In this document: positions 10,043-64,000 of the stretch, one piece after another | Position numbering within the stretch: the first letter of the stretch is position 1 | Layout of the letters: each line of letters begins with the position of its first letter | NCBI GenBank assembly: GCA_902806095.1 | Contig: CADCVF010000059.1 | Span: forward strand, 1 to 64,000 | Reading direction: 5' to 3' | Length of the DNA: 64,000 nt | Source: an uncultured Rubrobacteraceae bacterium | GTDB taxonomy: Bacteria; Actinomycetota; Rubrobacteria; Rubrobacterales; Rubrobacteraceae | Translations under genes and position numbers: made by a program | Notes under the pieces: model-generated | What the model saw: the letters and a program-made list of their open reading frames with translations, nothing else | Told to the model about the DNA's origin: nothing | Databases searched by the model: none

Positions 10043-10049
10043 GATTAAG

Positions 10050-10209
10050 CACGTCAGCATTTCAGCACGTCGCCTGTTCCAGGCGACTTGTCAGCATTTC
10101 AGCATTCTCCTGTAAATCCTGGCTGACTGGCTGACAAGCGAAGGCCGCAAGGCCTGAGCGTGCTGACATGCTGACAAGCGGAGGCGTCAGCCGGAGCGTG
10201 CTGAATTGC
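10050..10209. repeat. TCAGCA-type interspersed hairpin repeat cluster
   Basis: Multiple TCAGCA/TGCTGA units in both orientations surround small GC hairpins (GTCGCCTG..CAGGCGAC near 10067-10086; AAGGCC..GGCCT near 10140-10153). The left half carries TCAGCA forward and the right half TGCTGA, so the whole block is a loose inverted repeat. It fills the convergent gap between murB and the NYN gene. Related blocks occur at six other places in the window. Confidence 0.75.
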
Positions 10210-10781
10210 TATTGAGCTGACGGCTGAAGCCTGATGCCTGAAGCCTTCTTGAACAGATCCGGGATGTCTGCCAGGTCCGTATGCGCATCGCAGACGTCGA
10301 GGAGGGCCTGGGAGGTGCATTGGGCCGCGCTTATGACCTCGACGCGGATGCCTTTTTCGCTCTGGAGGTACTCGACGGCCTCGACGTAGTCTCCGTCGCC
10401 GGAGACGAGGACGTAGGTGTCGGCATGTCCTGCGAGACGCATCATGTCAACGACGACGCCTATGTCCCAATCGCCCTTGTGCGAGACCGTCCTCTCGCCT
10501 TCCGGGGTCAGGGTCTCGTGCACCACGAGCGGCTTGGAGCGCACCTTGTAGCCGAACTTGTTGAGGTTGTAGACGAAGGAGCGGGCCGAGGTCCCCTGGC
10601 CCTCTTCGGCCTCCTGCTTCTCGACGATGTAGAAAGTAGCCCTGAGGAGCTTCCTGTCCCCGACCGCCGCCGAGAGGAGCCTGGCGTAGTCGAGGATGCC
10701 TTTGTAGTAGTTCTTGATCGAGTGGTAGAGGTTCGCCCCGTCGACGAAGACGGCAACCCGCTCTGTATTTCTCCCTTCCAT
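10209..10781 (-). CDS. NYN domain (LabA/DUF88-like) PIN-fold nuclease
   Basis: About 190 residues. The N-terminal VAVFVDGANLYHS holds the first acidic residue of the NYN fold. KGDWDIGVVVDMMRLA and YVLVSGDGDYVEAVEYL hold the others, and the PIN-like acidic triad suggests a metal-dependent ribonuclease. ATG 10781 begins the conserved part; the longer upstream frame has no homology. It is transcribed toward murB, and no partner is encoded beside it. Related proteins act in RNA turnover; a specific target cannot be inferred. Confidence 0.85.
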   Translation of the reverse strand: MEGRNTERVAVFVDGANLYHSIKNYYKGILDYARLLSAAVGDRKLLRATFYIVEKQEAEEGQGTSARSFVYNLNKFGYKVRSKPLVVHETLTPEGERTVSHKGDWDIGVVVDMMRLAGHADTYVLVSGDGDYVEAVEYLQSEKGIRVEVISAAQCTSQALLDVCDAHTDLADIPDLFKKASGIRLQPSAQ

Positions 10782-33861: not shown

Positions 33862-34022
33862 AGGTTGCAATGAGGTTCAACCTCATTGCAAGCATTTCAG
33901 CACTTCAGCACGCCGTCTTCGACGGCTTTTCAGCTTGTCAGCTTCTAAAGTTTTGGCTGACTGGCTGAAAGCTGAATTGCTGACGAGCGAAGCCCGAAGG
34001 GCGCAGCGTGCTGACCAGCTGA
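33862..34022. repeat. TCAGCA-type repeat cluster with a perfect hairpin
   Basis: It begins with the hairpin TTGCAATGAGGTT/AACCTCATTGCAA (33864-33891). TCAGCA units and a TTCG-loop hairpin (GCCGTCTTCGACGGC) follow, and then the mirror half with TGCTGA units and CGAAGCCCGAAGGGC. It lies between the operon head and the NlpC gene. Confidence 0.75.
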
Positions 34023-39366: not shown

Positions 39367-40251
39367 GTGCCTACTCCTCGGGTCGTCATAGTCGGAGACC
39401 TGCTCTACGACCTGCTCGCCAGGGTGGACGGGGACGTGACCCTTGGGACCGACACCTTCACCCGGATACAGGCCGTCGCCGGTGGTTCGGGCGCGAACGC
39501 CGCGGCCTGGCTGGCCGCGTCGGGTGTCGAGACCCACTTCGTCGGGAGGGTAGGCGACGACGCCTTCGGCAGCTTCCTGGGAGACGAGATGGAGCGCGCG
39601 GGAGTGCTGGCGCACCTGGCACGAGATCCGTCTCTGGCAACGGGCAAGGTCTTCGTGCTCGTCGACGGTGCCGGGGAGCGGACCATGATCACCGACCGCG
39701 GCGCCGGCGAGGCTCTCAGCCCCGAAGACCTCCCAGGATCACTCTTCGGTGGAGGACACCTGCACCTCTCCGGCTACACCTTCTCCGGTGGTAGCCGCAT
39801 AGAGACCGCGACAGGGGCCCTTCGCCTGGCTCGCGAGTCCGGGATGACCGTCTCGGTCGACCCCTCGTCCGTCCCACTGCTTCGGGACATTGGTACCGAG
39901 CGCTTCCTCGGGTGGACCCGTGGGGCGGATCTGTGCTTCCCGAACCTCGAAGAGGGCGCGTTGCTGGCCGGGACCGAAGACCCTGGGCGTATCGCGGATA
40001 CTTTGCTCGGCTACTACTCCGCCGTCGTCCTGAAGCTCGGTGCGGAGGGAGCCATCTACGCGGACGAAGAAAGAACGCACGTCCCTGCAGCAGCGGCACG
40101 TGTAATTGACTCCACGGGCGCGGGAGACGCCCTCTGCGCGGGTTTTCTAGCAGCCTGGCTAACCGGGGCCCCGGCGGCCGAGGCATTGCGGCGGGGCGTC
40201 GGGCTCGCGGCTCGCGCCATCGAGCGCGTGGGTGGTCGCCCGAAAAGCTGA
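39367..40251 (+). CDS. PfkB-family carbohydrate kinase, PsuK-like by position
   Basis: 294 residues. It has the ribokinase fold with VAGGSGANAAAWLAASG near the N-terminus and the C-terminal ATP/anion-hole signature DSTGAGDALCAGFLAAWL containing the catalytic Asp. The remnant psuG directly upstream suggests this was the pseudouridine kinase of a psuGK pair. It appears intact, so it may now phosphorylate pseudouridine without cleavage, or act on another sugar or nucleoside. Confidence 0.88.
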   Translation: MPTPRVVIVGDLLYDLLARVDGDVTLGTDTFTRIQAVAGGSGANAAAWLAASGVETHFVGRVGDDAFGSFLGDEMERAGVLAHLARDPSLATGKVFVLVDGAGERTMITDRGAGEALSPEDLPGSLFGGGHLHLSGYTFSGGSRIETATGALRLARESGMTVSVDPSSVPLLRDIGTERFLGWTRGADLCFPNLEEGALLAGTEDPGRIADTLLGYYSAVVLKLGAEGAIYADEERTHVPAAAARVIDSTGAGDALCAGFLAAWLTGAPAAEALRRGVGLAARAIERVGGRPKS

Positions 40252-40365
40252 CCCTTATCATACGTTCCCGTGTCCTCGTGCGGTAGGATCTAACCCGCTG
40301 AATCGACAGGAGCATTCTCGTAGTCCAGCGGTAAGGCGTCGCGGATCATGGAGAAGCCTTATCGC

Positions 40366-41199
40366 TCACCGATCTTCGAAGACCGACACCCTGTTCTTGC
40401 CCGTCTTCTTGGACCGGTACATCTCCGCATCCGCCATCGCGATCAGACGATCCAGGCTCTTGGTCTCTTCTGAGAGGGGAACCACTCCCAACGACACTGT
40501 AGTCGGGCGTTCCAGCAAGTTTCCAGGTTCAGGCACGCACTCTCTCTGCACGGCTTCCCTGATGCGCTCGGCGACCTCGCGTGCGCCCCCCACCTCGCCG
40601 TTGACCAGCAACACGAACTCCTCGCCCCCGTAACGCCCGACCAGGTCGTCCGCCCTGGCCGACTCCCGCAGGATTCTTGCCACGCAACGCAGGATCTCGT
40701 CGCCTGCGCCGTGGCCATGGCTGTCGTTGTAGGCCTTGAAGTCGTCCACGTCGAGCAGGACGCAAGCCAGGGGCGTGCCGTTATCCATGGCTTGCTCGAC
40801 CCTGCGCCCCGCGGCCCGCTCGAAGAAAGAGCGGCTGCTGAGTCTGGTCAACTCGTCTACGTCTGCGGAGCGCCTGAGGGGGGAGATCTCTTCGCGCTCC
40901 ACCCGACTCAGGTAGTGCAGCACGGCCGCGGCGGCCGAGATGGCCACGAGCTCCGCGAACTCTTCGGCGGCGTCTGTTAGGGTGCTTGCTCCCCTCAACG
41001 CCGCGGCTATCCCGATGATCTCGGAGACTACGACGATCACGGCAGCGGCAGCCAGCACCCGCATGGCCTGACTGTGGGCGGAGAGGGTGAAGGCTGAAGC
41101 CACCCGCAGCGCCATGGCCACCACGAAGAGCCCGGCGGCGATACTCAGCGAGTCGAAGCCGATCTCCAGTACCCTCGGTGCTGCGAAAAGCTCTCCCAT
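40366..41199 (-). CDS. Membrane-bound GGDEF diguanylate cyclase
   Basis: 277 residues. About three N-terminal membrane segments (residues ~15-100) are followed by a GGDEF domain. The domain contains DELTRLSSRSFFERA, LLDVDDFKAYNDSHGHGAGD and the active-site RYGGEEFVLLV (GGEEF). It makes c-di-GMP from two GTP. No clear inhibitory RxxD site or PAS/GAF input is present, so the membrane part is the likely sensor. Confidence 0.92.
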   Translation of the reverse strand: MGELFAAPRVLEIGFDSLSIAAGLFVVAMALRVASAFTLSAHSQAMRVLAAAAVIVVVSEIIGIAAALRGASTLTDAAEEFAELVAISAAAAVLHYLSRVEREEISPLRRSADVDELTRLSSRSFFERAAGRRVEQAMDNGTPLACVLLDVDDFKAYNDSHGHGAGDEILRCVARILRESARADDLVGRYGGEEFVLLVNGEVGGAREVAERIREAVQRECVPEPGNLLERPTTVSLGVVPLSEETKSLDRLIAMADAEMYRSKKTGKNRVSVFEDR

Positions 41200-41263
41200 A
41201 CGCCTTCATTGTACCGAGACGGGTGTTGCGAGGATCTGAGGATCCCAGTTCCTTGATGCGGCG

Positions 41264-41458
41264 TTACGGGCTACCCAGCAGAAGGTTGGTGAAGAAGCCA
41301 TACGTGTAGGTCGCCTCCTTCGCCGCGACCCTGGCGGCAAGCCTCACGAGGATGGTTGCCAACGTCTCCCCGAGGCGAAACTCGCGGTTGAGAGTCGCCC
41401 GACGAAAAAGGTCGCCGACGAACTCGACCCCGGACCGTGCGAAGGCTGCGAAACGCGG
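41264..41458 (-). pseudogene. C-terminal fragment of a transposase
   Basis: The minus frame reads VEFVGDLFRRATLN and then LGETLATILVRLAARVAAKE, followed by ATYTYGFFTNLLLG and a stop. This resembles the end of IS982/IS4-type transposases, which typically have RIAAK, AYTYAF and NRLLGRP motifs. The catalytic part is missing. It lies under the upstream side of the second VapBC promoter. Confidence 0.4.
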
Positions 41459-41513
41459 CGTTTGGCTTGAAAGAGCGTATAATGACCACAAACGATATAC
41501 GAAAGACATCACT

Positions 41514-41777
41514 ATGGCACGATTCGTGGTCACAATACCGGAGGATTTTCTCGAAGAGGTCGATGCTAGGGCCAAAGCCGAGCACCGGAGCCGGAGCGAG
41601 TTGGTGCGGGAGGCGCTTCGGAGTTATCTGCGTTCGGGGGGAGGCAGGGGAAACATCTCGGATCGGCCCGAGTTCAAGAGGGCGATCCAGTTTCAGGACG
41701 AGATGCGGCGTCGCCACGAAGGGTCGGGATACAGTGGGTCGGAGGCCGTGCGCAAGATGCGCGACAGGATCTATTGA
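41514..41777 (+). CDS. Ribbon-helix-helix antitoxin (second VapB type)
   Basis: About 87 residues from ATG 41514. MARFVVTIPEDFLEEVDARA with RSRSELVREALRSYL forms the RHH domain; the rest is a charged tail. The longer open frame upstream has no homology. A TATAAT box lies near 41477-41482. The stop overlaps the PIN gene by 4 bases. Confidence 0.85.
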   Translation: MARFVVTIPEDFLEEVDARAKAEHRSRSELVREALRSYLRSGGGRGNISDRPEFKRAIQFQDEMRRRHEGSGYSGSEAVRKMRDRIY

Positions 41778-42202
41778 GTTATCTGTTCGAAGCCGCTCTG
41801 CTCGATACCTCCGTCGCGGTCAAGTGGTTTATCCTCGAAGAGGATTCGGAGAAAGCGGCGGACTTGCGTCAGGCTCATGGTCAGGCGGAGCTCCTGCTTC
41901 ACGGGCCGGACATCCTGTTCATGGAGCTAGCGAACGCGCTACGGTACTCGCCCCTGGTATCCGCCGGGGAGATACCGCAAGCCCTCCGGCTGTTCTCGGA
42001 CATGGAGATCATCACCGTCGCGTTCGATATGGACGTTCTGATCTCCTGCGTAACCCTAAGCACAGAGCACGACCTGGCCGTCTACGACGCCTACTTCCTG
42101 GCGCTGGCCCAGTCCCTCGACATGCCCCTCATCACCGCCGACCGGAAGATGATTTCCCGTCTCTCCGCAGAGTCTGGCGCCGTGGACCTCAAGGACCTCT
42201 AG
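41774..42202 (+). CDS. PIN-domain toxin (second VapC type)
   Basis: 142 residues from TTG 41774. PIN residues: Asp in ALLDTSVAVKWF, Glu in LFMELANALR, Asp in LAVYDAYFLALAQ, and Asp in LITADRKMI. Together with the preceding RHH gene it is a complete VapBC module, unrelated in sequence to the one near 11.5 kb. It marks the left edge of the defence-rich stretch. Confidence 0.87.
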   Translation: MSYLFEAALLDTSVAVKWFILEEDSEKAADLRQAHGQAELLLHGPDILFMELANALRYSPLVSAGEIPQALRLFSDMEIITVAFDMDVLISCVTLSTEHDLAVYDAYFLALAQSLDMPLITADRKMISRLSAESGAVDLKDL

Positions 42203-42237
42203 TGAGCCCGCGAGAGGGTACCTTGATCCGATGAAAG

Positions 42238-42372
42238 GGATTGCGCCGCGAGAAGGATGGGCACGACCTGATCTGATGCTGAGCGCAACCCCCAGGTCTC
42301 GACTGGTCGCTGGAGTGGGAGGGAATCTCATAACCGGCCGCAGACAGGCTGCTTACAGGCTTGCATCGAAGG
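42238..42372 (+). pseudogene. Degraded duplicate of the MNT-HEPN junction
   Basis: The bases align with 45544-45680: both contain GATTGCG-CGCGAGAA, GACCTGATCTG, GACTGGTC, the shared AGTGGGAGGGAATCTCATAA, and then ACCGGCCGC, GACAGGC and GCTTAC. It therefore covers the end of the nucleotidyltransferase and the start of the HEPN gene, with both frames broken. It ends where the DUF2283 gene leader begins. Confidence 0.7.
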
Positions 42373-42415
42373 TCACTGTGATGCGTCGGCGGCGCATCGG
42401 CGGAGGAGGTGGCTT

Positions 42416-42697
42416 GTGAAGCTTAGATACGACCCCGAATCCGGTGCCTTCTACGTGCGCGTCAAAGAGGGCGCGATAGAAGAGACCGTGCAGCACGCCG
42501 ATGGCGTCTACCTGGACATCGACGCCGGGGGAGGCGTGATCGGTGCCGAGTTCCTCAGCCTGAAGGAGTTGGCCGAGGCTATTACCGCGGAGGGCGGCAG
42601 GTGGGAGCTGCCCGAGCGTATCGAGGATTCAGACTCCTACGAGACTTCCCGAGCCGAATCGCTCACCAGGATGCGGCCCACCCGTCGTCTGGCCTGA
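42416..42697 (+). CDS. DUF2283-domain small protein
   Basis: 93 residues from GTG 42416 with GGAGGAGG upstream. MKLRYDPESGAFYVRVKEG and ADGVYLDIDAGGGVIGAEFL match DUF2283, a small beta-rich family often found beside toxin-antitoxin genes (DUF4258-type partners). No partner is adjacent. It occupies the place the HEPN gene would have in the duplicated block to its left. Confidence 0.8.
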   Translation: MKLRYDPESGAFYVRVKEGAIEETVQHADGVYLDIDAGGGVIGAEFLSLKELAEAITAEGGRWELPERIEDSDSYETSRAESLTRMRPTRRLA

Positions 42698-42751
42698 TCA
42701 CACACCGTAGTCAGTAACGGTCCGGACGCCTTCACGCTACACTGCCACGAC

Positions 42752-43147
42752 GTGACGGTGCGGGAGTTGGTCTGCGACGCGTGGGGTGCTCACGCTATCG
42801 CACCACTACGTCCAACTTTCAGTTCCCTATCTAGCGGGAGTGGGTCTGCGACGGACCTCATCATCGCCGCGCATCAGGGGCGGCTCCACTTTCAGTTCCC
42901 CTCCGTGCTGGACATGCTGACATGGCTGGAAAACAGCGAGCAGGTAGAAGCTGTGAATGGTAATCCCGGGGACGAAAGCGCCCAGAGCCCGACGGGGGAC
43001 AAGATAGCCGACAAGCTGAAGTTCGAGACGGCAGTTGGTGATCCTGTGTCCCTGCTCGGCGGCGAGATCGCCGAAGTTAGGAAGAAACTGGACGACGAGT
43101 TCAAGTCCTACCTTACCGCGCTCAACAACACATCGGCTGGCAGGTGA
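42752..43147 (+). CDS. Hypothetical protein, possibly a remnant of a type I-D Csc2/Cas7-like gene
   Basis: 131 residues from GTG 42752. The first part looks composite: just upstream the same frame reads SNGPDAFTLHCHDVTVREL, resembling the Cas6 N-terminus at 46072. The last ~40 residues (DPVSLLGGEIAEVRKKLDDE) may correspond to the C-terminal helix of Csc2, which normally precedes csc1. The short length and mixed character suggest a deletion product. The Csc2 link is inference. Confidence 0.35.
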   Translation: MTVRELVCDAWGAHAIAPLRPTFSSLSSGSGSATDLIIAAHQGRLHFQFPSVLDMLTWLENSEQVEAVNGNPGDESAQSPTGDKIADKLKFETAVGDPVSLLGGEIAEVRKKLDDEFKSYLTALNNTSAGR

Positions 43148-43153
43148 GGGACG

Positions 43154-43942
43154 GTGCTTTACGCACGGGCCTTGTTGCTGCGTAACTGCGGGCGGTTCAC
43201 GCACGTCAGTTCCGATTTCGGGTCGCAGTACCGCACGCACACTTTCGCCAGCAGCGAGGCGTTGTACGCCAGCCTGACGCGAGGAGTTACGTGGCGGCAC
43301 GCCAACAGGTTCGTGGACTTGAAGGAGGACGCCAAAAAGTCCGCGAGCGATGATTACTTCTTCTCTGACTATGACGTGAAGGCCAGGCCAGTTTGGTTTA
43401 CGCCGGGCATCTTCGTGGATGAAGACCTTCACCTGCTAGCAAAGCAGCGCGGCGTTGTGGACAGAAACGATTTCAACGTCGTGAATGAAGGATATCCGAG
43501 TACGGGTGGAGGAGGACGACCGTACTTCGTGCCCACTTACGGACGCATCGAAGGCGTCTTGCCCGATCATCGGCTACTCACCTGCGCCTTGTCGCCGCAA
43601 GAGAGCGAGCTGGAAGCGTTCGCTCTTGGACAGACATTCTTGATGGGCAAGAAACGAACGATGTTTCAGGTCACGGACGCCTCTCAGGTTGCGGAGTTGA
43701 TCGAGGCAGAAGGCGATGCTCCTATCGAAGAATGCCAACCCATACAAGTCAGGATGGACGAGATCAGCAATTTCCACGAATACGAGGTACTGGCCGGAAC
43801 CGCCCGCTACTTGCTGGTACGTGGACGTACTCCGGACACATCTTTAGGGACATTGTTTGTCAGCCCCGATGAGACGCTGAGACTCAAGCGTGTTTTGCCT
43901 ACATTCTGGGTGGAAAAAGTCGAACAGATGCTACGTGTCTGA
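43154..43942 (+). CDS. CRISPR-associated Csc1 (type I-D Cas5)-like protein
   Basis: 262 residues. By eye it follows Csc1: an N-terminal strand, then SSDFGSQYRTHTFASSEALY (Csc1 has an aTREiGrLYeTepilhnyAL-type stretch). Next comes WFTPGIFVDE, then PTYGRIEGVLPDHRL and ALGQTFLMGKKRTMF, where Csc1 has PSFGR and wirLGkwmsKae. Cas5-type subunits cap the 5' crRNA handle in Cascade. It overlaps the CARF gene by 8 bases. Cas10d and Cas3 are not in the window, so it cannot act as a full effector here. Confidence 0.55.
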   Translation: MLYARALLLRNCGRFTHVSSDFGSQYRTHTFASSEALYASLTRGVTWRHANRFVDLKEDAKKSASDDYFFSDYDVKARPVWFTPGIFVDEDLHLLAKQRGVVDRNDFNVVNEGYPSTGGGGRPYFVPTYGRIEGVLPDHRLLTCALSPQESELEAFALGQTFLMGKKRTMFQVTDASQVAELIEAEGDAPIEECQPIQVRMDEISNFHEYEVLAGTARYLLVRGRTPDTSLGTLFVSPDETLRLKRVLPTFWVEKVEQMLRV

Positions 43943-45174
43943 ATCGAAAACAATCTCTGTCAAAGCCATCCTCCTCCTCGCCTCGCGGCCTGAGTCGGTG
44001 GAGATCGCGGTTCGGGAGATGCGGCCTGGGGTTCTGGCTGTGATCGTCTCGCAGGAGGTGCTGGAGGCCGTGGTGCTGAAGGGGAGGGAACTGAAGGGCG
44101 AGGCTCGCCTCCTGTACCGGATGGTGGACGACCCAATGGAGATCTCCGACGCCTTCCACAAGTTCGAGCTGGCGCTCTCTGACCTCGAAACAATCGGCTA
44201 CGGTCGCGAAGAGGTCCTTCTCGACGCCACGGGCGGCACGACCCCGATGCGCCTCGGCGCCGCGCTGGCGGCGATGACGCGGGGCATCGAGATGGTGCAC
44301 CAGCGGGTGCCGCAGGTCTACGTGGAAGGGCGCTGGGAGCGGGACGAGTCGAGGGAGGTGGAGGTCGCCCCTATGGGAAACCCGCTGGAGGCGACCGGGC
44401 CCCTGCGCGAGGGGCAGGCCATCGAGTTGTTCAACCGTCGCGACTACGGCGCAGCGGCGCTGGTCTTCAGGGACATCGCGTCCAAAGTGAGTGGCGCGGA
44501 GCGCGGGCACTATTACCGCTCACCTTCCCGAGAAAAGGGAGGTGCACCGAGATCCTCTGTCCACCAGAGCCGCCGCCCGCTCCGCGAGAGCCCCCTCCGA
44601 GAACTCTACTCCCAACTCCTCCCGCGCCCCCGCAGCTTCTGCAGGGCCACCCCGTAATCCGCCACGTCCCATGCCGCGTACCCTTCTGAGAGTAGTAGAA
44701 GCCCAGGGTAGGCTCTCTCTGGAGAACGTCGTGGATATGCTGGAGAACGCCCGAAGGCGCATCGCCGACCAGGGCCGCTACGACGACGGCGTCGCCAGGC
44801 TCTACCGCTGCGTGGAAATGTGGCACCAGTGGAGGTTGGGCCAACACTCCATCTCCACAGAGAAGGTGGACTGGGAGAAGGTGGACGGGGAGGTTAGAGA
44901 GCGTTTCCTGCAGGAAACGAGACTGAATGAGCCGCCGCGAGTCCTGGCGTTGCATCACGCCCGTCTCCTGGACCATATAATGAACGGCGAGGAGACCGAA
45001 GACGAGGCGGTGCTCAAGGACCTCTTGCAGAAGCGGAATCACTCCATACTCGCCCATGGCCTGCAGCCGATAGAGAAGAAGTCTACGGTGCGCTTTGTGG
45101 AGTACGTGGACGCGCTGGTGGAGGCGCCTGAGGCCGGGGTCGGGGCGGAGCACGCGCGCCTGAGGGGATTGTAG
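43935..45174 (+). pseudogene. CARF-HEPN CRISPR ancillary ribonuclease (Cas02710-like) broken by an internal inversion
   Basis: From GTG 43935 the N-terminal CARF part reads SVKAILLLASRPESVEIAV, with the family motif LLDATGGTTPMRLG. It runs to GAERGHYYR near 44519. The C-terminal HEPN part resumes at 44705 (GRLSLENVVDMLENARR) and holds the R-x6-H site in LLQKRNHSILAHG. Between them the coding sense is on the opposite strand: there one reads GLLLLSEGYAAWDVADYGVA, then AREELGVEFSEGALAERAAA, then ISVHLPFLGKVSG, the missing middle. So ~44520-44704 is inverted, with two further frameshifts inside. The intact protein would be a cyclic-oligoadenylate-controlled RNase. Confidence 0.75.
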
Positions 45175-45177
45175 GAG

Positions 45178-45648
45178 ATGGCGCTCGCAGGGTTAGAGAT
45201 ACCGGAAAGCATCGTGTCGGGACTGAGGGAAGGATTGGGAGACGACCTGCTCGCCGTGGTGCTGTTCGGTTCACGGGCGCGCGGGGAGGCGCGCGAGGGT
45301 AGCGACTGGGACTTCCTGGTCGTGGCCCGCGACTTGCCCGAGAGGACGTTGGAACGCGCCTTCCGACTCAAGAAGATGCTACCTCCTCTACATCGTGGGG
45401 AGGCTAGCCTGCTGGCCAGGACACCGGAAGAATTCATGAGTAGTCTGCCTGACCTGTACCTGGATATCGCACTGGACGGTGTGATCCTCCATGACACGGA
45501 CGGTTACATGGCAGAACGGCTCAGGTTCTTGAGGACTTTGATCCGGCAGAATGGATTGCGTCGCGAGAAGCAAGGACGTGACCTGATCTGGCGTTGGGAG
45601 CAGCCGCCAGGCCCTGACTGGTCATTAGAGTGGGAGGGAATCTCATAA
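45178..45648 (+). CDS. mntA: MNT-type nucleotidyltransferase antitoxin
   Basis: 156 residues. The minimal nucleotidyltransferase motif is VVLFGSRARGEAREGSDWDFLVV, with the G-S-x10-D-x-D pattern. In HEPN-MNT pairs such proteins adenylylate the HEPN toxin and so silence it. It starts 3 bases after the CARF-HEPN stop and overlaps the HEPN start by 19 bases, so it is embedded in the cas operon. Confidence 0.85.
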   Translation: MALAGLEIPESIVSGLREGLGDDLLAVVLFGSRARGEAREGSDWDFLVVARDLPERTLERAFRLKKMLPPLHRGEASLLARTPEEFMSSLPDLYLDIALDGVILHDTDGYMAERLRFLRTLIRQNGLRREKQGRDLIWRWEQPPGPDWSLEWEGIS

Positions 45649-46082
45649 CCGGCCGCGGACAGGCGGCTTACCGACTCGAACTTGCCCGAGGTTTTCTCGA
45701 AGAAGCGCGCCAGGACAAAGTCCTCGAGCGTTGGAGGTCCGCCGTGGACGGCGCCCAGCTCGCCGTCGAGAACGCAGGAAAAGCCGCGCTGGCGCTGGCC
45801 GGACAGATCGGTCGTACCCACAACCCGGCCACCCAGCTTCGCCGCCTGATCGGAGAGGAGCGGTTCGATCCCGCGTACTCGGAAAAGCTAGAGCGCCTGG
45901 CTGAGTTGGCAGAGCTTCTCGGGCCAGACATCCACGTCCAGACTGACTACGGTGATGAGGTAGAAGGCCGCACACCCTGGGAGCTCTTCGATGAGGCCGA
46001 TGCCGGCCAGGCTCTCGTCGTTGCTGAGGAGGCAGTGAGCCTAGCCAATCAACTCATAAGCAAAGAAAGCCATGAGCAATAG
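45630..46082 (+). CDS. hepT: HEPN-domain toxin of the MNT-HEPN pair
   Basis: 150 residues from GTG 45630. The helical HEPN fold is visible in AYRLELARGFLEEARQD and AVDGAQLAVENAGKAALAL; an Arg-Thr-His site lies in GRTHNPATQLRRL. HEPN toxins cut RNA or tRNA ends. The cas6 reading frame starts inside its last codons (11-base overlap), indicating continuous translation from mntA through hepT to cas6. Confidence 0.82.
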   Translation: MGGNLITGRGQAAYRLELARGFLEEARQDKVLERWRSAVDGAQLAVENAGKAALALAGQIGRTHNPATQLRRLIGEERFDPAYSEKLERLAELAELLGPDIHVQTDYGDEVEGRTPWELFDEADAGQALVVAEEAVSLANQLISKESHEQ

Positions 46083-47025
46083 CGGTCCGGACGCGCTGAA
46101 GCTCTACCGTTACGAGGTCACGATCCGATTTCTGGAGAAGGCCGTCGTGCCGCCTTATTAGGGGTCCATGATCCGGGGCGCCTTCAAAGAGAGTTGCTGT
46201 CCCTTCCCACACGATGACGATTCCGGCTGTCCTCTGGGAGACAAATGTCCTTACGGCTACGTCTTCGAGACCTCTCCGCCCGAAGACACGCGGGAGTTCG
46301 CGAAGAACAGGGAGGTGTCGCGTCCCTACGTCTTCGAGCCGCCCGATGGGACGAAGATGGAGTACGCACCCGGCGAAAAGATGCGCTTCGGGTTTACCGT
46401 GGTGGGCCGGGCGGCGGAGTACATGCCTTACTTTGTCTACGCGTTCTCGAAGATGGGTGAGGAGGGGATCGGACGTCTGAGGGCCCGCTACGCGTTGGAA
46501 CAGATGATAGCCGAGAACCCACTCTCGGGGACGCGGGAAGAGGTCTTCGACGGCGAGATGGTGAAGAACAGGAGGCTGCCCACCTCCTGGGATGATGCCA
46601 TAAACGCGGCCGGGGCTATGGATGGGACATGGGTGCGCCTGGAGTTCCTGACCCCGACCTTCGTGAAGTTCAGGGGCGAGGTCTCCACTGAGGCCCCACC
46701 GTTCGCGGCTCTGGTGCAGAACCTCCTGATCCGCATCCCGATGCTCTCGGCCATACACTGCGGTGAGGTCTGGCAGGAAGACTTCAAGTCGCTGGTAGCA
46801 AGGGCCGGGGAGGTCGAAACAGTAACCGACGAAACCACGTGGGTATCCTTCCGCCGATATTCCTCGTTCAGGAAAAAGAGCGAGACGCTCGAAGGCGTCG
46901 TGGGACGGGTGGAGTACGCCGGACCCGTCGAGGAATTCCTGCCGCTGCTGCACATCGGGCAACTGACGCACGCCGGCAAGCGGGCGGTCTTCGGGCTGGG
47001 ACGTTACCGGTTACGGGAAACCTGA
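46072..47025 (+). pseudogene. cas6: cas6 pre-crRNA endoribonuclease with an in-frame amber codon
   Basis: From ATG 46072 the frame reads LKLYRYEVTIRFLEKAVVPPY, then TAG (46159-46161), then GSMIRGAF without frame change. This matches the first strand and PPYxGSxxRGA loop of Cas6. The rest has CPLGDKCPYGYVFE (Cys cluster), PFAALVQNLLIRIPMLS and the C-terminal RAMP signature LTHAGKRAVFGLGRY. Translation may restart at ATG 46168, giving 285 residues without the first beta-strand. With one sense codon restored, a full-length protein of 317 residues would result. No repeat array is in the window. Confidence 0.8.
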
Positions 47026-47106
47026 GCCTCAGGATCTTCTCGCCTGTATCGAGAGGAGTGCTTTGTTGGTGAACGTAGCGGTTGCTGACGGCGGATGTGG
47101 GGTTCT

Positions 47107-48495
47107 TCAGAAGCTGATCCAGGAGCCCTTGTACTTGATCTCCGGTCTCTCGACCCAGCCGAATCTGTAGACGCCATTGTCGCCACGGTAGTAGCGGTGG
47201 TCAACTACCTTGAGCCCCGCGCCCCCGTACGGCGAGCCGTTAGGGGTGTACGTGGGGTTGCGGTAGTAGGCCTGGTGCAGGTGTACGGGTCCGACCGGGA
47301 ACTTATCGCCACCCGTCTTGCCCGCAAACCCGATAACGGTGTGCCTGTCGACCACTGCTCCCTTTTTGATCCCTGGGGCGAGGAGGCTCAGGTGCCCAGA
47401 GAGGTTCACGTAACTGCCGTTGGCGGCTTCGATCGAGACGAAGAGGCCGTAGTCTTTGTGGGTGATGTTGCGGCCCGCGAAGGTCACCGTGCCGCTCCCG
47501 AAGGGCGAGTAGATAGGATCTCCGTGGTTGAGGGGGTAGTCTACGGCGAACTTGTCGTTGGTGAAGTGTCGCCTGTTACAGCGACCGTACTCGTCGAGAC
47601 TGCCGTGGGTGTACTCATCCCAGTAGTTGGGGCTGCCTACGATGCTCCAGCCCGTGGGGATGTTATCTTTGGGGTCGGCGTTGGCCGTGGACCCGTACTG
47701 CGTCTGGAAGAAGAAGTCGGGGTCGGCCTGCCAGCAACCTTCATCGATCAGAGTCTCCTCCCCCAGCGACGAGGCCGCGAAGGTCGTCTTCCCCTCCGTA
47801 GCCGCCTCATGAACCGTCCGCCCGCGCTCGGCGCGTTTGGGATCACCCGCCCCGTAGAGGGATTTCGCAGAATTGGCGACACGTAGTCCGAGCGAGCTGA
47901 CCGGCCTCGATGGGGGCTCGAAGCGCAAAGTGGAGAGCATTTTCTTGTCGCCTGAACCTAATCTCTTCCCGTAGACATTGATCTGGTACACCCGGCCGTT
48001 CAGCGGAACGTAGACTTCTGTGGAGGGGGTGCTACCCGGGATGGGCCCGACCGCCACACCTCTGTGTCCCTTCTCGGCGATGCTGACCTCCTGGCGAGTA
48101 ATGGGGAGGTCACGGTAGGCACGGAGCTTCTCTTGGACTGTCGCCTTGATCTGTCCTGGCCGAAGACCGTAGGCCAGCGCGACGCGCACCGCCGGCGTTC
48201 CGCCGTGGTCGTGCAGGGCGCCAGAGTCGGGCCTCCACAACGTGAAGCCGTAGGTTTGGTTGTACGTGTACCGTTCGCGCTCGACGAACCACCTGGTGGG
48301 ATGGGAGATCGAGGCCCCGACCACCTCACCTTGCGTCCTCTGGGTCGGCCCCTTGCTCCCCTGGAGAGCCTCAGCGGAGGAGACGAGCTTGCCCGCGGCC
48401 GACAACGCGGCAAGCGCCCCCACGATCCCAAGCAAGACGGCAAGACCTCTCAGGCCCCCGCAATGTGTGAGGTTCAACCCCAAAACGCGCCGCAC
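47107..48495 (-). CDS. Secreted M23 (LytM-type) metallopeptidase
   Basis: About 462 residues from GTG 48495, which has GGAGGGG 6 bases upstream. An N-terminal membrane/signal segment (AVLLGIVGALAALSAAGKL) precedes a long extracellular region of unknown fold. The C-terminal peptidase domain carries HFTNDKFAVDYPL (zinc His/Asp), GTVTFAGRN and VHLHQAYY (HxH). It would cut peptidoglycan cross-links. It is divergent from the DUF3105 gene. Confidence 0.88.
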   Translation of the reverse strand: MRRVLGLNLTHCGGLRGLAVLLGIVGALAALSAAGKLVSSAEALQGSKGPTQRTQGEVVGASISHPTRWFVERERYTYNQTYGFTLWRPDSGALHDHGGTPAVRVALAYGLRPGQIKATVQEKLRAYRDLPITRQEVSIAEKGHRGVAVGPIPGSTPSTEVYVPLNGRVYQINVYGKRLGSGDKKMLSTLRFEPPSRPVSSLGLRVANSAKSLYGAGDPKRAERGRTVHEAATEGKTTFAASSLGEETLIDEGCWQADPDFFFQTQYGSTANADPKDNIPTGWSIVGSPNYWDEYTHGSLDEYGRCNRRHFTNDKFAVDYPLNHGDPIYSPFGSGTVTFAGRNITHKDYGLFVSIEAANGSYVNLSGHLSLLAPGIKKGAVVDRHTVIGFAGKTGGDKFPVGPVHLHQAYYRNPTYTPNGSPYGGAGLKVVDHRYYRGDNGVYRFGWVERPEIKYKGSWISF

Positions 48496-48742
48496 CGAGT
48501 CCCCTCCGGTAGTTCTTCTTACCCTTGATCTTAGGGCATGCATATTAAGTGGCTTACGGATCGGCGTCAATGGCTGCTCTAGCTGTCCTGTCAGGTTCGA
48601 GCCCACTCACGGCGCGCCGACGGCACAGGCTGGTCTCCGAAGTCATCCTGCAAACCGCCTCCACGACAAGTGGCCCCCGGCCCGGTCGGCCGAGGACAAC
48701 CTCGCGGCAAGATCCATAGTATCGTCAGATCCGTAGATACCA

Positions 48743-49564
48743 TTGCCGGAAGAAAAATGGAAGGTCGCATCCTTGAGCGCCGAGAGCCCGAGACGAGAGT
48801 TCGGAGAGAGACTCAGCGGAAAGAAGCCCGCCGTCATGTTCCTGCTCGGCATCCTCGTACTCCTCGCGACCGCATGCGGCGGGCAGGCGTCGGACAACTC
48901 CTCCAACGATTCAGGGAAACAGGAAACGTCAGGGACCCGAAAACAGGAAGCCACAAGCGCCGCTTCCTCAGAGAAGAGCGTTGTCGAAGAGACCACAGTA
49001 GGGAAGACCGGCGACTCCGGGGAGGCGGCCGAGCTCGCTAGGGCCGAGGTGGGGAGGAGGGAGATCTCCAACATGATCCCTGCCGACAGGAAGAAGCCTG
49101 ACGCGGCGCAACCTTTGCCTGAGAACCCTCCAAATGGGATAGAAGTCTATCCGGCCACAACCAACCGCACCGTCGAGGGTCCCATAGATTACGAAAGGCA
49201 CCCGCCAACCAACGGGGACCACGATCCGCTGTGGCAGAACTGCGGCTTCTACGAAGAGCCCGTAGAAGACAGGCACGCCGTACACAGCCTGGACCACGGC
49301 GTGGTCTGGATCACCTACCGCCCCGACCTGCCAGAACAGCAGCTCGAAACCCTACGCCCGTACGGCGATGAGGACTACGTCATACTCAGCCCGCATCCCG
49401 GCCAGGACGCGCCTGTAACCGCCACCTCATGGAGGGTCCAGCTACAACTCAACGGTGCGAACGACCCGCGCCTCACACACTTCGTAGACCAGTTCCGCAT
49501 ATCCGAGCTAGCCCCCCTCTCGGGCAACCGCTGCACCCTAGGCGTTGGCAACCCGGAGGGGTAG
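48743..49564 (+). CDS. DUF3105-domain lipoprotein
   Basis: Up to 273 residues. A basic start and hydrophobic run end in a lipobox (LLATACGG), followed by a low-complexity Ser/Glu/Thr linker and a DUF3105 domain (RHPPTNGDHDPLWQNCGFY, AVHSLDHGVVWITYRP). The start is uncertain: TTG 48743 gives the longest form and ATG 48836 starts just before the hydrophobic core. The mature protein should be outside, lipid-anchored. Function unknown. Confidence 0.8.
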   Translation: MPEEKWKVASLSAESPRREFGERLSGKKPAVMFLLGILVLLATACGGQASDNSSNDSGKQETSGTRKQEATSAASSEKSVVEETTVGKTGDSGEAAELARAEVGRREISNMIPADRKKPDAAQPLPENPPNGIEVYPATTNRTVEGPIDYERHPPTNGDHDPLWQNCGFYEEPVEDRHAVHSLDHGVVWITYRPDLPEQQLETLRPYGDEDYVILSPHPGQDAPVTATSWRVQLQLNGANDPRLTHFVDQFRISELAPLSGNRCTLGVGNPEG

Positions 49565-61507: not shown

Positions 61508-61675
61508 GTTAGCATGTCAGCATGTCAGCACTACTTCAGCTGGTCAGCTCGTTTGGAGAGCGGTCCGAGTTCGTTTTGCCCTGCGGTGGATAAGGGCGCG
61601 CAACGTTTGCCACGGAGCCAGGCTGCCGGACACTTGCTGAAATGCTGACTAGCTGACATGCTGAGGTGCTGAGCG
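61506..61675. repeat. TCAGCA-type repeat cluster between divergent genes
   Basis: The left part has AGCATGTCAGCATGTCAGCA and CAGCTGGTCAGCTC. The right part has TTGCTGAAATGCTGACTAGC, TGACATGCTGAGGTGCTGAG and CGACCGAAGGGAGCG. Unlike the other blocks it lies in a divergent, promoter-bearing gap. Confidence 0.65.
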
Positions 61676-63931: not shown

Positions 63932-63933
63932 AG

Positions 63934-64000
63934 CAATTCAGCACGCTCCAGCCTACGGCTGTCGCTTGTCAGCACTTCAGCATGTCAGCTTCTTGTTCTT
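63934..64000. repeat. TCAGCA-type repeat cluster at the window end
   Basis: AATTCAGCACGCTCCAGCC, a TACG-loop mini-hairpin (AGCCTACGGCT) and GTCAGCACTTCAGCATGTCAG continue to the last bases. The element may extend beyond the window. Confidence 0.65.

Follow-up and report, generated by a model that had tools for sequence, protein, structure and literature searches.

The window, a stretch of 64,000 nucleotides from an uncultured Rubrobacteraceae bacterium, contains fragments of CRISPR-Cas genes interspersed with small toxin-antitoxin-like genes, all on the same strand. The most informative comparison is with genome G008 (MAG Rubrobacteraceae bacterium MGR_bin48, JACCSM010000061.1), which belongs to the same genus as the window genome; both are draft assemblies. 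Other relatives are designated by G numbers and their loci by L numbers. The features of the locus are as follows.

41514-42202, + strand: vapBC-like pair, RHH antitoxin gene at 41514-41777 and PIN toxin gene at 41774-42202 (profile matches PF01402, E 1.6e-10, and PF01850, E 1e-13)
42205-42214, + strand: native downstream bases of vapC, AGCCCGCGAG, ten bases common to G008
42220-42361, + strand: relic of mntA from about codon 120 and of the first 16 or so codons of hepT, by similarity to the right copy, G026 and G008
42363-42411, + strand: probable remnant of a DUF4258 gene (its 3′ tail), sharing the reading frame of the hepT start, by alignment to L061
42416-42697, + strand: intact, open DUF2283 gene, 93 aa (PF10049, E 2.5e-10)
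42707-42763, + strand: relic of the first codons of the left-operon cas6, by similarity to G008, G026 and the right copy
42760-42900, + strand: CRISPR array relic, with a 3′ half-repeat (42760-42778), a spacer, a whole repeat (42816-42852), a spacer and a 5′ part-repeat (42889-42900)
42901-43147, + strand: 3′ end of cas7d (csc2) of the right operon, by protein alignment with the C-terminus of the G018 Cas7 (score 281)
43154-43942, + strand: cas5d (csc1), open, 262 aa (PADLOC Cas5d, E 3e-86)
43939-45174, + strand: csm6-like CARF-HEPN gene, broken, matching TIGR02710 in halves
45178-45648, + strand: mntA, open (PF01909, E 7e-9; motif GSRARGEAREGSDWD)
45630-46082, + strand: hepT, open (HEPN, PF05168, E 7e-9)
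46072-47025, + strand: cas6 of the right operon (PF10040, E 1e-16), with one in-frame TAG

At the left edge, the window sequence jumps after AGCCCGCGAG to about codon 120 of mntA, two points that lie about 9.4 kb apart in G008. Because the bases just 3′ of vapC are those of G008, the left copy would once have been a full operon running from vapBC and cas3 to cas6. A vapBC pair is also found upstream of cas3 in G018 and G012, and the end of vapC lies upstream of cas3 in G008. The mntA/hepT relic aligns with 45535-45676 of the right copy over 142 nt, ungapped, at 80% identity (E 2e-32, alignment within the window), and is 84% identical to G026 and G008; its mntA frame contains stops. The sequence-only reading had placed this match at 42238-42372. 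The similarity is real, and only its limits have to be redrawn.

A small ORF (42315-42419) leads from the hepT start into the probable DUF4258 tail and overlaps the DUF2283 gene by 4 nt (GTGA). This tail was not in the earlier account. The 49 bases before the DUF2283 gene align with the 3′-terminal part of a G061 DUF4258 gene (L061) at a score of 19, which was reached by none of 2000 shuffles. A complete DUF4258 gene is absent upstream of the window DUF2283, where only the tail of about 49 nt is present, and neither the window genome nor G008 yielded a DUF4258 gene. The DUF2283 gene itself starts with GTG after GGAGGAGG and scores 40.8 bits against PF10049 (gathering score 23), in agreement with the initial description of an intact gene between the mntA/hepT and cas6 pieces.

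The frame of the left cas6 start reads SNGPDAFTLHCHDVTVR. Its similarity to the right cas6 start (42712-42762 against 46077-46127; 71%, E 0.004 within the window) is marginal alone, but the same bases are 84% identical to G008 and 82% identical to G026. In G008 the cas6 start holds the same position, and the same DNA continues into a cas6 frame that is open to the end of the contig. The cas6-like piece first described at 42713-42765 is therefore genuine: the alignable sequence does not end with the first 130 bases of the left relic, and chance similarity is ruled out by the identity to G008 and the continuation there.

The CRISPR array relic, also new relative to the first description, consists of one whole 37-nt repeat and two partial ones with a repeat unit of 73-74; a functional array is absent from the window. 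The repeat matches 37-nt repeats spaced about 72 in G012 (52 copies), G009 (29 copies), G020 and G019, and the relic is the only place in the window genome where the repeat occurs within 3 mismatches. The relic spacers gave no phage match. At the left junction GCG is common to the array and the cas6 start, and at the right junction CAGTTC is common to the array and the cas7d 3′ end. The ORF at 42752-43147 was considered as a gene and rejected, since it merely joins the CRISPR relic to the tail of cas7d. In G018 and G009 the array precedes the operon, both being on one strand. G031 keeps, at the corresponding chromosomal site, one repeat joined to the tail of cas6 and followed by the same downstream flank as in the window (49013-49557), so that nearly the whole operon has gone from this site in G031. 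Given these arrangements in G018, G009 and G031, an array would be expected between two tandem operons.

The right operon has lost cas3 to cas7d. In its csm6-like gene, about 196 bp at 44516-44711 are inverted relative to the loci of eight relatives (L022, L023, L024, L025, L101, L102, L105 and L106), separating the CARF half from the HEPN half. The mntA and hepT genes are open and conserved, with a dN/dS of about 0.1 against G026. The mntA gene, upstream of the HEPN gene, carries the MNT motif hG[GS]x9-13[DE]h[DE] and matches NF047752 with E 4e-9, yet below the cut-off of that model. A motif scan found no HEPN RX4-6H RNase motif in hepT of the window, G026 or G023; therefore, toxicity of the window HEPN protein is not to be assumed. 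The in-frame TAG in cas6, at about 46159, corresponds to GAG in G008 and G026, and shortly after it the segment 46159-46215 lacks four codons that are kept in both relatives. Both loci are broken, and CRISPR function is lost in both.

In the relatives, the operon matches Cas10d, Cas11d, Cas7d, Cas5d, Cas3 and Cas6 models, which by PADLOC and NCBIfam assigns it to type I-D. The G008 contig reads vapC end, RHH, cas3, HD, cas10d, cas11d, cas7d, cas5d, csm6 (CARF half), mntA, DUF2283 and cas6. Its Cas10d-type large subunit (PDLC01506, E 2e-94) is encoded by a gene that is deleted in the window, and in a test for Csc2/Cas7d and Csc1/Cas5d G008 matches TIGR03157 above the cut-off. The G008 sequence from DUF2283 to the cas6 start is 87-88% identical to the window. 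Thus, the type I-D operon of G008, which ends in the order mntA, DUF2283, cas6, independently confirms that DUF2283 stands in place of HEPN, as the sequence-only reading had proposed. The mntA gene of G008 is frameshifted and its last codons are gone; this MAG is 79% complete, its contig ends inside cas6, and the frameshifts in mntA and cas10d are possibly errors. Elsewhere, the order csm6, mntA, hepT, cas6 is found in G026, G017 and G023, and the order cas5d, mntA, hepT, csm6, cas6 in G018. Since csm6 directly adjoins cas6, with no pair between them, in G012, G009, G016, G029 and G034, the small toxin-antitoxin-like pair can be regarded as an insert in a slot of the operon. At L024 (9601-11712) it was also seen that a csm6-like CARF-HEPN gene is part of the family's type I-D operons, yet their Cas10d shows no GGDD motif.

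The DUF2283 proteins of the window and G008 share 89% amino acid identity. The 26 nucleotide changes between the genes comprise 16 silent and 10 nonsynonymous ones (dN/dS 0.18, P 8e-5), which shows purifying selection over both branches spanned by this comparison and makes selection still ongoing in the window likely. One scan of the GTDB species genomes with DUF2283 found G008 alone, and none was found in viral contigs. Sequence searches returned no DUF2283 homologue in the PDB, and the AlphaFold model (pLDDT 43.5) was too poor for a fold search. To our knowledge DUF2283 has no described function, and no paper naming it was found in the literature searched. Elsewhere in the family, DUF2283 genes mostly lie directly after a DUF4258 gene (PF14076), and such pairs are scattered. 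DUF4258 is listed, with function unknown, in the RelE/ParE superfamily of toxins (PMC11980606). Judged by this usual partner, the most economical reading would be that the window DUF2283 is an orphan antitoxin-like gene; at present it may be an orphan antitoxin or merely a gene in slow decay. A second DUF2283 gene, in G023 (L018, 1-807), apparently also has only a DUF4258 tail upstream, and a parallel loss of DUF4258 is possible there.

The left piece is probably what decay has left of the end of a once complete, G008-like type I-D CRISPR-Cas operon, next to a second operon of divergent sequence in which hepT was retained. The sequence-only reading had instead postulated that the mntA-hepT-cas6 block was duplicated in tandem in the window lineage and that DUF2283 then replaced hepT in the left copy. 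The pieces do occur in the same order and orientation and share 80% identity over 142 nt. However, CRISPR repeats, the cas7d 3′ end, cas5d and csm6 lie between the two mntA pieces, so that the repeated unit is the whole operon rather than the block, and the left edge is the native end of vapC. The swap is also present in the G008 operon, and in comparable pieces the left copy is closer to G008 (84-88% identity) than to the right copy (71-80%); hence the swap predates, or lies outside, any duplication in the window lineage. A duplication of the block in this lineage is consequently highly improbable. The left-right divergence of 20-29% is as great as that between operons of different genera, the right copy being about 79% identical to G026, whereas the left operon differs from G008 by only 12-16%, even though the best core-gene match between the window genome and G008, with part of the window searched, was 79%. 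This makes a recent local duplication unlikely.

A duplication of the whole operon could still have preceded the split from G008, with one copy then swapped and the hepT-bearing copy of G008 lost or located on another contig. The G008 contig does stop inside cas6, its MAG is incomplete, and in both trees, built on short pieces, left and G008 group together as sister to the right copy with a weak 56-62% support. No genome of the family was found to have two operons, however, and we consider this older duplication unlikely. A search for strains with two full copies, as had been suggested, found none among 39 family genomes, although G008, whose contig ends inside cas6, might hold a second copy, and a tandem pair of complete operons was seen in no genome. 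The data seem to fit better with two divergent alleles that were brought together, either via transfer or through an old duplication. Under the preferred reading, that of a G008-type operon beside a divergent hepT-keeping one, two full operons would once have lain in tandem, and we infer the following order of events. The left, G008-type operon would have come to lie directly before the second operon. Deletions would then have removed three stretches: vapC to mntA in the left operon, the left cas6 beyond its start together with most of a CRISPR array, and cas3 to cas7d in the right operon. Decay of the left copy after the exchange, as first suggested, is supported.

The exchange itself may be pictured as follows. 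The slot between csm6 and cas6 can hold a small mntA-hepT pair. In an ancestor common to the left operon and that of G008, a toxin-antitoxin-like module, the DUF4258-DUF2283 pair, would have taken the place of hepT; later loss of all of DUF4258 but its tail would have left DUF2283 flanked by mntA and cas6. Replacement by the pair with later loss of DUF4258 is the simplest reading of the tail and its frame. Whether a functional swap took place is another matter. The DUF4258-DUF2283 pair could have been inserted by chance while hepT was deleted, the functions of the two being unlinked, and we give this even chances. Such pairs, scattered in the family as they are, may be simply mobile, and mntA is frameshifted in G008; on the other hand, in both genomes DUF2283 occupies the very position and orientation of hepT, with mntA before it and cas6 after it, and is under purifying selection. 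A chance insertion is compatible with the favoured anatomy and differs from it only in the meaning of the exchange. It is improbable, at the other extreme, that the slot is an exchangeable addiction slot in which DUF2283 would work together with MntA or with the CRISPR operon and be no leftover antitoxin.

Several known systems resemble parts of the locus. Of type I-D CRISPR-Cas (Cas10d, Csc1/Cas5d and Csc2/Cas7d), the window has Cas5d and the tail of Cas7d; in contrast to that type, the relatives' operon includes a TIGR02710 csm6-like CARF-HEPN gene and mntA-hepT, and in the window only a dead remnant of the locus is left. The right pair is like HepT-MntA (type VII) in having MNT first and HEPN second, overlapping genes and a polymerase-beta motif in MNT. 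Unlike HepT-MntA, the pair is inside a CRISPR operon, its HEPN is devoid of the RX4-6H motif, and both the left allele and G008 have DUF2283 in place of HEPN. With DUF4258-DUF2283 pairs, the left piece shares an intact DUF2283 gene whose frame overlaps by 4 nt that of the DUF4258 tail in front of it, but DUF4258 itself is lost, and none was found elsewhere in the genome. CreTA is a toxin-antitoxin pair guarding CRISPR-Cas, whose CreA component, an RNA resembling a crRNA, acts via Cascade (PMC12737573). As with CreTA, a toxin-antitoxin-like module lies within a CRISPR-Cas locus; the modules described here, by contrast, are protein pairs, and control by Cas proteins is not indicated.

Taken across the relatives, one slot of a CRISPR operon thus offers a natural series of no module, mntA-hepT, mntA-DUF2283 and remnant, which shows that one toxin-antitoxin-like module can take the place of another. 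In the dying locus of the window, the genes still open are mostly module genes (VapBC, DUF2283 and mntA-hepT), though cas5d is open too. Since it is mostly module genes that are left open, the idea that such modules guard the locus becomes testable.

G003 lacks the stretch 40243-48839, and there about 160 bp separate the two flanking sequences; therefore, the stretch as a whole acts like an island that is either present or absent. At its edges are two genes, GGDEF-like and M23-peptidase-like, which were identified by inspection of the sequence only. Finally, dispersed repeats of the form GCTGACAAGC..GCTGACATGCTGA occur in the window at 10049-10210, 33866-33920, 61512-61672 and 63932-63995, and they are frequent in G008 too.
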